The notes under the pieces are model-generated. The model saw nothing but the letters and a program-made list of their open reading frames with translations. It had not been told where the DNA came from and searched no databases. A DNA stretch of 64,000 bases from Candidatus Gastranaerophilales bacterium (lineage in GTDB: Bacteria; Cyanobacteriota; Vampirovibrionia; Gastranaerophilales; Gastranaerophilaceae), in NCBI GenBank assembly GCA_944322785.1, contig CALUPW010000001.1, positions 248,001-312,000 of the forward strand. The letters run 5' to 3'. The position numbers were made by a program, and so were the translations under genes. Position 1 is the stretch's first letter, and the number at the start of each line of letters is the position of its first letter. Positions 4,319 through 7,401 of this stretch are shown here, one piece after another.

Positions 4319-4798
4319 ATGAGTTATAAACTGGAAAAACCATACACGGATGTTCAATATGCGGATTTTGTAGTAGAGCATAACCACCAAAACGGTCGTA
4401 ATATTGAAATAACCGAAGATGCAGCCTACGCACTGGAACCTAACGAAATGCTGGGAGAAGACGGGGTTCCTGTAATCAATCCGAATTATGAAGCGGAACT
4501 GGCACAGAAAAAACGAGCACGTCTGGATAAGCTGAATTTGACGGCAGCAGACGTTGAACGTGCGATATACAAAGCAAAGGGGATGGACTTTGAGGATGTA
4601 ATCAAGAAAGTTGAAGAGTTAAATAGTGACACAAACCCTTCAACCAGTATTGACATCAAGGCCTTGAAAATAGAACTCAAAGCCAACAACTTTTACCGTG
4701 GAAACCCCTACATAAATGCGGTTGGCACACTTTTAGGCTTTACGTCCGAGCAGTTGGATGAATTCTTTGAAACCAATGATTATACTAAGCTGGTGTAG
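4319..4798 (+). CDS. Unrecognised protein paired with the tail-fibre gene
   Basis: A 159-residue acidic protein with a strong AAGGAG site. The middle (about 60-100) is helical and charged, including QKKRARLDKLNLTAADVERA. The C-terminal part resembles small helical phage proteins found next to tail fibres. No signal peptide or membrane segment is present. It lies 57 bases behind the tail-fibre gene without an obvious terminator between, so co-transcription is likely. A role in fibre assembly is possible but is only inferred from position. Confidence 0.6.
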   Translation: MSYKLEKPYTDVQYADFVVEHNHQNGRNIEITEDAAYALEPNEMLGEDGVPVINPNYEAELAQKKRARLDKLNLTAADVERAIYKAKGMDFEDVIKKVEELNSDTNPSTSIDIKALKIELKANNFYRGNPYINAVGTLLGFTSEQLDEFFETNDYTKLV

Positions 4799-4801
4799 GT
4801 A

Positions 4802-4903
4802 GTTGAAAAGTTGAATGGTTGATTAGTTGAAAGGTGGAAAGGTTGAACAGTTGAAAGGTTTATTAGCGAGCCGTTCAACCTATCAACCTTCACCCGTTCA
4901 ACC
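4802..4903. repeat. GTTGAANN 8-bp repeat element without a gene
   Basis: Seven tandem octamers of GTTGAANN type (4802-4857, for example GTTGAAAA, GTTGAATG, GTTGAAAG, GTTGAACA) are followed after a short spacer by inverted copies (CCGTTCAA, CCTATCAA and relatives, 4871-4903). The whole can fold into a long imperfect hairpin. The same octamers border the four-helix-bundle gene at 6302. This copy looks like an empty or deleted version of that element. It begins four bases after the stop codon of the preceding gene. Confidence 0.85.
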
Positions 4904-4962
4904 AAATTAGCAGGTCGGGCATACCTGCCTGACATCTATCTAAAAAGTAAGTTTATATTTAT

Positions 4963-4988
4963 GCGCCGGTAATACCGGCGCTTTTTTT
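4963..4988 (+). terminator. Intrinsic terminator upstream of tyrS
   Basis: An 8-bp stem, GCGCCGGT (4963-4970) and ACCGGCGC (4974-4981), with a 3-base loop, is followed by seven T. It separates the phage-like gene pair and repeat element from tyrS. Confidence 0.9.
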
Positions 4989-5030
4989 GTTTAAATATCT
5001 TAACTTCAACTCCTTATTGATTTTTGTTTT

Positions 5031-5039
5031 TGATACAAT
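5031..5039 (+). promoter_or_regulatory. Extended -10 promoter of tyrS
   Basis: TGATACAAT is an extended -10 element 22 bases before the tyrS ATG. No good -35 hexamer is visible at the expected distance. The leader is too short for a T-box riboswitch. Confidence 0.45.
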
Positions 5040-5061
5040 TAAATCAACAAGGAGAGAATAA

Positions 5062-6285
5062 ATGGTTGATATAAGAGAAGAATTTATAGAACAGGCAAAG
5101 AAACTTGCAAGAGGCGCCGAGGTTTTGCCGGGCGGAATTGAAGAACTTGCGGTAAAATTGCAGCACGCAAAAGATACAAACACACCTTTACGTGTAAAAC
5201 TCGGAATGGATCCGACACGACCTGATTTACACCTAGGGCACACTGTTGTAATGAGAAAATTAAGAGAATTTCAAAAACTCGGCCATAAGGTCGTTTTGAT
5301 AGTCGGCGGGGCGACCGCAATGGTCGGCGATCCTTCCGGAAAGTCCGAAACTCGTCCGTCTTTAACCAAAGAGCAGGTTGAGGAAAATGCAAAATCATAT
5401 TTTGAACAGATGTCAAAAGTTGTGGATGTTGAAAAAGCTGAAGTTACAAACAATGCTGACTGGCTTCACAAAATGAGTTTTACGGAACTGTTGACGCTGG
5501 CGGCCAAAATTACGGTTGCACAGATGATGACAAGAGATGATTTTGCAAAAAGATACTCTGAAGGTCGTCCTATTTCGGTTCATGAATTTTTCTATCCTTT
5601 GATGCAGGCTTATGATTCTGTTGAAATTGATGCAGATATTGAACTCGGCGGAACGGATCAGAGATTTAATACCCTTCTGGGGCGTCAAATTCAAGAAGCT
5701 TACGGCAAAAAATATCCGCAGATGGTTATGCTGCTTCCGTTGATTGAAGGCACAGACGGACTTGTCAAAATGTCCAAAACTTACCCTGAACACTGCATTT
5801 CACTCACTGACAGCGCAAATGATATGTTCGGCAAATTGATGAGCATTCCCGACACGTTGATTGTAAAATATTTTACTCTTTTGACCGACGTATCGGATGA
5901 TGAATTAAAAGAGATTGAAAGTTCTCTTAAAAATCCGTCCGTCAACCCGCGTGATTTAAAACTCAAACTTGCATATACAATTACGGAAGAATACCACGGA
6001 AAAGAGGAGGCCGAAAAAGCTCAGGCGGAATTTATTAATGTAGTATCAAACAAGGGACTTCCCTCAGATATTGAAGAAGTAAAAGTCGAGCCGGGCAAAA
6101 ACATTCTTGACCTTCTGGTAGAATTAAAGTTTGTCCAGAGTAAGGGCGAAGCAAAACGTCTTATACAGGGCGGCGGAGTTAAAATAGACGGCGAAAAGAT
6201 TGCCGATATGACTTATACTCTAAACTTCACTGACAGTGTAATATTGCAGGCAGGAAAAAGAAAATTTATGAAGTTGAAGAGTTGA
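5062..6285 (+). CDS. tyrS: Tyrosyl-tRNA synthetase
   Basis: A class I aminoacyl-tRNA synthetase charging tRNA-Tyr. The 407 residues show the HIGH-type motif HLGH (57-60), the Rossmann core with GGTDQRFN, and KMSKT (236-240) in place of KMSKS. A C-terminal S4 RNA-binding domain (about 345-405) is also present. The spacing fits the shorter TyrZ-like bacterial group. AAGGAG sits just upstream of the ATG. The last codons and the TGA stop (6273-6285) lie inside a GTTGAANN repeat array, so an insertion at the 3' end has rewritten the final residues without harming the S4 domain. Confidence 0.96.
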   Translation: MVDIREEFIEQAKKLARGAEVLPGGIEELAVKLQHAKDTNTPLRVKLGMDPTRPDLHLGHTVVMRKLREFQKLGHKVVLIVGGATAMVGDPSGKSETRPSLTKEQVEENAKSYFEQMSKVVDVEKAEVTNNADWLHKMSFTELLTLAAKITVAQMMTRDDFAKRYSEGRPISVHEFFYPLMQAYDSVEIDADIELGGTDQRFNTLLGRQIQEAYGKKYPQMVMLLPLIEGTDGLVKMSKTYPEHCISLTDSANDMFGKLMSIPDTLIVKYFTLLTDVSDDELKEIESSLKNPSVNPRDLKLKLAYTITEEYHGKEEAEKAQAEFINVVSNKGLPSDIEEVKVEPGKNILDLLVELKFVQSKGEAKRLIQGGGVKIDGEKIADMTYTLNFTDSVILQAGKRKFMKLKS

Positions 6286-6725
6286 AAGGTTGAACAGTTG
6301 AATGGTTAATTTAAATGAGTCTTATAAATTTGGATTTGAAAAATTAGAAGTCTGGCAAAATTCAATACAGTTATCAAAACTAATTTATTACCTCACTTTG
6401 TCATTTCCTAAAGAAGAAATCTACGGGCTTACTTCGCAAATAAGGCGGGCAATGATTTCAGTTTCTTCAAATATTGCAGAAGGCTCAAGTAAAAATTCTC
6501 TAAAGGATCAAGCCAGATTTTCAGAAATTGCATTTGGAAGTTTGCTTGAAGTTTTAAATCAAATAATTTTGGCATATGAATTATCTTATATATCAGAAGA
6601 AAATTATATTGATTGCAGAAATAAAATAGAAATTATTTCAAGACAACTGAATGCACTGAGAAAATCACAAATGGACAGAACTAATAAATAGCCGTTCAAC
6701 CGTTTAACTTTTCAACCATTCAACC
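6273..6725 (+). mobile_element. Repeat-bounded element carrying a four-helix-bundle gene
   Basis: The left edge is GTTGAAGA, GTTGAAAG, GTTGAACA, GTTGAATG in exact 8-bp register (6273-6304). The right edge is the inverted set CCGTTCAA, CCGTTTAA, CTTTTCAA, CCATTCAA (6692-6723). One gene fills the space between. The inverted arrangement, the reuse of the octamers at 4802 and the intrusion into tyrS suggest a small transposable or recombinogenic unit. No transposase is encoded, so movement would need help from elsewhere. Confidence 0.6.
6302..6691 (+). CDS. Four-helix-bundle protein (23S IVS/bAvd-like family)
   Basis: A 129-residue protein with the hallmark motifs of the four-helix-bundle family, whose members include proteins of 23S rRNA intervening sequences and relatives of the Avd accessory protein. 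These are FEKLEVWQNSIQLSK, the GLTSQIRRAMISVSSNIAEG signature, and ARFSEIAFGSLLEV. The family forms positively charged barrels that bind nucleic acid. The ATG at 6302 lies inside the left octamer array and has no Shine-Dalgarno sequence, so translation may depend on read-through from tyrS 16 bases upstream. Its cellular role is unknown. Confidence 0.88.
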   Translation: MVNLNESYKFGFEKLEVWQNSIQLSKLIYYLTLSFPKEEIYGLTSQIRRAMISVSSNIAEGSSKNSLKDQARFSEIAFGSLLEVLNQIILAYELSYISEENYIDCRNKIEIISRQLNALRKSQMDRTNK

Positions 6726-6738
6726 AGAGGAATGTTTT

Positions 6739-7401
6739 ATGTTCAAAATCCTAAAACGAGGAATCACAAAAGTAAAAGAAGATATAAAAGTTATTTACGA
6801 CAAAGATCCTGCCGCAAATAATTTATTAGAGGTAATTTTGTGTTATCCGGGACTTCATGCGCTTATTGCATATCGTTTTGCACACAGACTTTACAAATGG
6901 CATATCCCGCTTATCCCACGTGTAATTTCATATATTACAAGAATAATTACAGGGATTGAAATCCACCCTGCGGCAAAAATCGGCAGAAGATTTTTTATTG
7001 ACCATGGAGAAGGTGTTGTAATCGGAGCCACAACGGTAATCGGGGATGACGTTTTGATTTACCAGCAGGTAACGCTCGGCGGAACAGGAAAAGAGCAGGG
7101 CAAACGCCACCCGACTTTAGGACATGGCGTAATAGTCGGTGCGGGTGCAAAAGTTTTAGGTAACATTACCCTTGGGGATTACGTTCGAGTAGGCGCAGGT
7201 TCTGTTGTTGTGGAAGACGTACCGGAATATTCGACGGTTGTCGGCGTTCCGGGCAGAATAGTCCGGCGAAAAATTAAGGACAAAAACGGTGTTTTGATGC
7301 ACAACAGAATTCCGGATCCTGTCAAGTGTGAACTTAACCGATTGAAATATGAGGTTCAGGAATTGAGGGAAAAATTAGATAAAATTGAAAAATTAAGTTA
7401 A
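6739..7401 (+). CDS. cysE: Serine O-acetyltransferase
   Basis: Acetylates serine with acetyl-CoA, the first step of cysteine synthesis. The N-terminal helical part (1-65) precedes a left-handed beta-helix of hexapeptide repeats (about 70-170). Characteristic stretches are IHPAAKIGRRFFIDHGEGVV with the catalytic His/Asp pair, then QQVTLGGTG, GHGVIVGAGAKVLGN and VVGVPGRIV. The length (220) matches the short CysE/EpsC type. A helical C-terminal tail follows. AGAGGAATG precedes the ATG, 14 bases after the repeat element. Confidence 0.94.
   Translation: MFKILKRGITKVKEDIKVIYDKDPAANNLLEVILCYPGLHALIAYRFAHRLYKWHIPLIPRVISYITRIITGIEIHPAAKIGRRFFIDHGEGVVIGATTVIGDDVLIYQQVTLGGTGKEQGKRHPTLGHGVIVGAGAKVLGNITLGDYVRVGAGSVVVEDVPEYSTVVGVPGRIVRRKIKDKNGVLMHNRIPDPVKCELNRLKYEVQELREKLDKIEKLS

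Follow-up and report, generated by a model that had tools for sequence, protein, structure and literature searches.

IVP genes, the name used here for members of PF05635/TIGR02436 ('23S rRNA-intervening sequence protein' or S23p), lie, in many bacterial phyla, between inverted arms made of short tandem repeats, and the repeat units track the ancestry of the encoded protein, occur in mirrored order in the two arms and are usually abundant as cognate arrays in the genomes that carry the gene. Carriers of a given IVP version usually also hold its unit in dozens to hundreds of arrays, and gene and repeats therefore look like a single, so far unrecognised mobile element. The best explanation, and in our judgement a probable one, is a selfish element resembling the intervening sequences (IVSs) of 23S rRNA, in which the IVP gene occupies the loop of a hairpin and the arms are tandem arrays of a lineage-specific unit of 7-9 nt. 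IVP/S23p genes are common and have no assigned function, and a gene-specific repeat word offers a direct, testable substrate for their product. The link also joins three questions: the role of the IVS protein, the origin of 23S intervening sequences, and the source of the intergenic heptamer arrays of cyanobacteria, Xanthomonas and others.

Two array loci around tyrS

The window, a 64,000-nt stretch from a Candidatus Gastranaerophilales genome (G000), contains two array loci on either side of a tyrosyl-tRNA synthetase gene, with the following features:

4802..4860, + strand: left arm of a gene-less hairpin; seven degenerate GTTGAANN units, beginning right after the stop codon of ORF 4319-4798
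4871..4903, - strand: right arm of the gene-less hairpin; complementary units
5062..6285, + strand: tyrS (tyrosyl-tRNA synthetase), between both elements; its final codons and stop fall in the second element's left arm
6273..6304, + strand: left arm of the gene-bearing element; four GTTGAANN units, with pairing that reaches about 6311
6302..6691, + strand: IVP / S23p four-helix-bundle gene; 129 aa, PF05635 / TIGR02436
6695..6725, - strand: right arm of the gene-bearing element; complementary units
6739..7401, + strand: downstream cysE-like serine acetyltransferase gene; the genus-wide comparison used the tyrS|cysE gap

The loop of the first hairpin (4802-4903) is 10 nt long, and that of the second holds the 129-codon gene. 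A first-pass annotation had described exact 8-bp arrays with inverted partners; both loci are present as it said, but the units are degenerate (variants of GTTGAANN include GTTGATTA, GGTGGAAA and GTTAAACG) and the second right arm spans 6695-6725. The window holds 11 matches to three consecutive GTTGAANN units at up to three mismatches; shuffled sequence gives an expectation of 0.24. Chance tandem repeats were ruled out by the shuffles and by the control genes described below.

The tyrS gene, which ends at 6285, takes its stop codon from the left arm of the element around the IVP gene, whose own start codon (6302) is in that arm's last unit. In predicted RNA folds, the arms close around the whole gene (6262-6735, z -3.5), and the gene-less locus forms a hairpin (4795-4910, z -4.0). 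At 6262-6285 the array has overwritten the end of tyrS, where the C-terminus reads KLKS followed by the array stop, compared with KLVK in most relatives.

The window IVP, a single copy in its genome, matches PF05635 with an E-value of 6e-35 and 120 bits (curated cut-off 33.8), and its second family score is 112 bits against a cut-off of 24. Its AlphaFold model is a four-helix bundle (pLDDT 94), closest to 2GSC (TM 0.95) and more remotely similar to Avd (4dwl) and to the chains of the ribonucleoprotein of diversity-generating retroelements (DGRs; 8ub7); the first-pass placement in the four-helix-bundle family of 23S rRNA IVS proteins and Avd relatives was therefore correct. Genes above the family cut-off occur in 44 of the 191 genomes sampled in the organism's family and in 115 of the 292 sampled phylum-wide. 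We take the protein to be under constraint because dN/dS of close IVP gene pairs is mostly 0.03-0.23 (one distant pair gives 0.31). The IVP has no catalytic domain, a point against the element reading.

The match to Avd and to the DGR ribonucleoprotein fold is what favours retrotransposition through a reverse transcriptase (RT) partner, on the pattern of Avd in DGRs. We find this very improbable, since RTs show no association with IVPs, being detected in 17 of 44 IVP genomes and 65 of 147 others (a hand count), and no RT was detected in G002, a genome with two IVPs and more than 200 arrays. The RTs of the window's genome lie at C1:19 kb and on C12, apart from the IVP at C1:254 kb. Avd itself resembles PF05635 (PMC10053308), and DGR Avd and IVP share a related pentameric four-helix-bundle fold; unlike the window IVP, which has no RT beside it, bAvd genes have an RT nearby and are without flanking arrays. 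Downstream of the bAvd genes at L121-L126, which also have an RT nearby, a sequence similar to GAGCAGAGNGTGCTATTTTATCTCGTCGGCAGCGG is conserved in most.

Inverted arms and lineage-specific units

Within the organism's family, we compared 51 strong IVP copies with 20 weak PF05635 matches of bAvd type. Inverted complementarity between the flanks exceeded that of dinucleotide shuffles in 50 of the 51 IVP copies and in none of the 20 bAvd matches. The mean tandem score of IVP flanks was 19 of 24, against about 13 when shuffled, and an inverted score of at least 12 was reached by 47 of 51 IVP genes versus 4 of 220 size-matched control genes from the same genomes. Many copies in a wider set (80 genome contigs from other phyla, 48 viral contigs and other cyanobacteria) are likewise flanked by arrays, mostly with a period of 7 and some with 8 or 9; a strict test demanding both arms and equal period was passed by 57 of the 145 readable copies. 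Left-arm purine polarity, which is true in the family, does not extend to all of the wider set and was rejected as a universal rule.

The unit varies among IVP copies, with GTTGAANN, GTGAAGN, GTGAATAA, GTGAAAA, GTGACTAA, GGCGATAAG, GCACTAAG, AGAAGGC and others represented. The first-pass annotation had named GTTGAANN as the octamer of the element: it does occur at both window loci, but every IVP lineage has a unit of its own and GTTGAANN is only one among the many; it was dropped as a defining feature given the 7-9 nt range of unit length. Arrays flank nearly every copy of the gene and, genome-wide as they are, stay linked to it by their unit, the opposite of the unrelated scatter against which the same annotation had set its proposal.

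Between copies at different places, array similarity rises with protein identity, from a mean of 4.2 at 20-30% through 4.7 (40s), 5.9 (50s) and 7.6 (60s) to 10.5 (70s), and it is greater still for copies at the same place. At tyrS|cysE in G002 and G007, members of the window's own genus, both the protein clade and the unit are different, and the nearest relatives of the window IVP (L078 and L081) belong to another genus and have place and unit type in common with it. Since units track protein ancestry, and since another clade at the same place has another unit, arms and gene are inherited together, with lineage-wise drift of the unit. Unit variants follow a mirrored order in the two arms to a degree that unit-shuffling does not reproduce (p 8e-7), which is the behaviour of true inverted repeats.

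Places occupied in the family include groES|groEL, rimP|nusA, tyrS|cysE and the gap before lpxD (all but tyrS|cysE named by reading the flanking translations). IVP copies lie between co-directional neighbours in 44 of 45 cases in the family and 57 of 67 in the wider set; orientation counts from viral contigs gave no co-directional bias but were set aside, ORF calling being unreliable in GC-rich contigs. Stop codons occur in 2.0 of the 3 frames of left arms and in 1.56 after shuffling (p 4e-10). Such a context would also suit an element that is mainly a device for RNA processing or operon decoupling, with arms that form an RNase III substrate containing stops, an IVP that binds this substrate and regulates the neighbours, and mobility as an incidental property. 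The orientation bias, the stable stem, the excess of stops and the cutting of the Coxiella IVS by RNase III all agree with this account; we nonetheless give it little chance of being correct, because occupancy of the same gap is patchy within one genus (8 of 14 species are empty) and gene-less copies are dispersed by the hundreds.

Gene-less copies and arrays in carrier genomes

Of 14 species compared in the genus, eight have an empty tyrS|cysE gap (10-40 bp), three (G003, G006 and G013) have gene-less arrays there and three (G000, G002 and G007) a gene-bearing element. These states agree with the first-pass suggestion of a full and an empty copy of one small element. By their sequence, gene-less hairpins such as 4802-4903 look like ORF-less derivatives of the gene-bearing element. 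That hairpin is missing upstream of tyrS in the readable relatives (G003 and G008 fall outside this comparison). No target-site duplication is evident at tyrS|cysE or in a further genome, G096, when compared without a clean strain-level empty site, and no insertion event was caught between close strains, which counts against the element reading.

G096 contains three ORF-less elements of about 140 bp, which have a common loop (86-97% identity); their sequence sharing stops at the arms, beyond which no outer terminal repeat is present. The common loops, together with shared sequence ending at the arms, indicate that these three spread as units. The conserved loop of these elements (L348 at 18565 and 19753, L349 at 267) is AT-rich, and before each stands a stretch resembling TCCTTT, which may be a ribosome-binding site in complement. 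The same boundaries bear on mobilisation in trans by a transposase, for instance a Y1/IS200-type enzyme working on the hairpins or a DDE enzyme that uses ends lying beyond the arms. Although hairpin ends resemble REPIN logic and some cyanobacterial copies lie inside units with outer IS-like ends, the lack of an outer repeat in G096 and the identity of the conserved gene inside the element, which is an IVP and not a transposase, make this improbable.

In G270 (L311-L319), near-identical IVP copies lie within larger units, most of them beginning TAACTGACGTTACGCA, and were apparently multiplied by another mobile element; we rejected these recent duplicates as proof of IVP-driven transposition because they are inside larger MITE-like units. 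Armed IVP elements in G311 (L323, L324) lie within outer inverted ends, GGCTCTTC, that resemble IS ends. Some copies, those of G270 and G311, were evidently multiplied by other elements, a further point against the element reading. The pair of IVPs in G231 is a duplication exceeding the 4.3 kb read.

Genome-wide array counts came from pattern searches and from 20-kb stretches, the genus comparison covering the 14 species. Four of the five units tested in the genus abound in the genome carrying an IVP with that unit. GTGAAGN arrays number 231 in G002 and 50 in G007, both carriers, and at most 5 in other members of the genus, and GGCGATAAG arrays number 108 in the carrier G002, 7 in G007, 1 in G004 and otherwise 0. 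Two enrichments were predicted beforehand: 89 GTGAATAA arrays in the carrier G007 against 0-3 in other members (the backwards control pattern is uninformative here because the unit is nearly identical when reversed), and 90 GTGAAAA-type arrays in the carrier G013 against 0-4. A carrier's own arms make up only a few of its array matches. The exception, and a point against the element reading, is GTTGAANN, with 224 arrays in G002, 208 in G007, 27 in G005, 20 in G003 and 18 in G000, the only one of these genomes with an IVP of that unit.

A further sample comprised twelve carrier genomes (eleven as 20-kb stretches, plus the window; three are from the same genus). Own-unit arrays occurred at 21/Mb versus 3.1/Mb for foreign units, and the own-unit total was 28 versus a permutation mean of 5.7 (P 1e-5). 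Among the 25 arrays inspected, 22 were intergenic; both orientations occurred within one cluster at 4 of 25 own-unit sites at the stringency used, and many hairpins were seen. The carriers G056, G162 and G085 had no own-unit amplification in the stretches read, which counts against the element reading.

Arrays might instead spread without the IVP, through slippage, recombination or template switching, leaving the gene as a passenger with good survival in gaps rich in arrays. Two observations agree with such spread. GTTGAANN arrays are plentiful in genomes without that IVP, and in G002 and G007 four array families stand in the fixed order GTGAAG-GTTGAA-GCACTAAG-GGCGATAAG, with tandem copies too, which points to amplification by recombination. 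We nevertheless regard spread without the IVP as unlikely: every tested unit except GTTGAANN peaks in its carrier genome, two of them as predicted; the sisters G002 and G007 differ in array content as they differ in IVPs; nearly all family IVPs are armed, whereas 98% of control genes are not; and the IVP is under purifying selection. Gene and arrays could also be linked by common inheritance, with the IVP not acting on the arrays.

The four-family block at L301 (G002:C2:60000-62500) is arranged as a nested mirror image, and composite blocks of this kind (L301, L307 and L381) lie near many contig ends in G002. Their structure suggests elements inserted into one another and then amplified. At L301 and L303 of the same genome, dispersed GTCATTCTGAG...GAAGAATCTC hairpins adjoin the arrays.

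A proposed mechanism and known systems

In the IVS-like selfish element that we favour, a pentameric IVP would recognise its own unit, perhaps in RNA or single-stranded DNA with each subunit binding one repeat, and together with host enzymes would promote the copying of hairpins bounded by the arms, the cutting and copying being performed by the host enzymes. Targets would be gaps between co-directional operon genes or the loops of existing hairpins, and ORF-less hairpins like 4802-4903 would be non-autonomous copies. In the transcript the arms could form a double-stranded stem, a candidate RNase III substrate by analogy with the 23S rRNA IVSs, and RNase III cutting combined with the stop codons in the arms might render the insertion tolerable. 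The arrays would presumably be the means by which the IVP gene spreads.

The 23S rRNA IVS of Coxiella burnetii contains an S23p ORF, a 28-bp stem and tandem GACAGAT heptamers, and is excised by RNase III (PMC4990558, 2016). Three or four of these heptamers precede the ORF, in strain-variable number, and 23S IVSs take the place of hairpin tetraloops (PMC4990558). The elements described here have the same protein family and an ORF in a loop closed by terminal inverted repeats; unlike the IVS, the window's element lies between tyrS and cysE, not in an rRNA gene, and IVP elements have lineage-specific units and dispersed gene-less copies. In that account the Coxiella heptamers are not generalised beyond 23S rRNA. 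In our reading, gene-bearing 23S IVSs and the intergenic IVP elements may be a single kind of element. We think it possible, without leaning towards it, that they represent a widespread class of mobile DNA whose sole protein, a pentameric four-helix bundle without enzymatic activity, recognises a 7-9-nt word particular to its lineage and drives the spread of hairpins made of tandem copies of that word, with 23S IVSs and part of the unexplained heptamer excess of bacterial genomes among its products.

RAYT genes are likewise flanked by their own repeat type, and their cognate repeats are extragenic, in inverted pairs and tandem clusters, with several families per genome (PMC3116915). IVP genes resemble them in that their flanking repeat type is also scattered through the genome, and GTTGAANN arrays are also plentiful in non-carriers; the IVP element differs in that its gene encodes a PF05635 four-helix bundle rather than a Y1 tyrosine transposase and its arms are short tandem arrays rather than REP palindromes. 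Like MITEs, the IVP elements are short, with terminal inverted repeats and many non-autonomous copies, but no parent transposase is known for them, and no target duplication was evident at tyrS|cysE or in G096.

Cyanobacterial STRRs are intergenic heptamer arrays. They were reportedly treated by Mazel in 1990, small dispersed repeats inside Nostoc heptamer arrays are said to have been described by Elhai in 2008, and a study by Mrazek in 2007 reportedly belongs beside these two. Intergenic heptamers (GGGAATC and similar) are known from Xanthomonas and Nostoc, with 70 close inverted pairs among 186 repeats in Xanthomonas (PMC4692102), and intergenic arrays of the heptamer TAACTGA from Beggiatoaceae (PMC4679880). 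Neither paper draws a tie to the IVP, with no mention of four helix or S23. IVS elements, the heptamer repeats of Xanthomonas, Nostoc and Beggiatoaceae, and RAYT/REPIN systems are thus already known; no statement of a general link between IVPs and cognate inverted arrays was found in the open-access literature searched. In Xanthomonas/Pseudoxanthomonas (L174, L188), an IVP gene lies between apparent carA and carB genes, with GGGGACC heptamers before it and no right arm.
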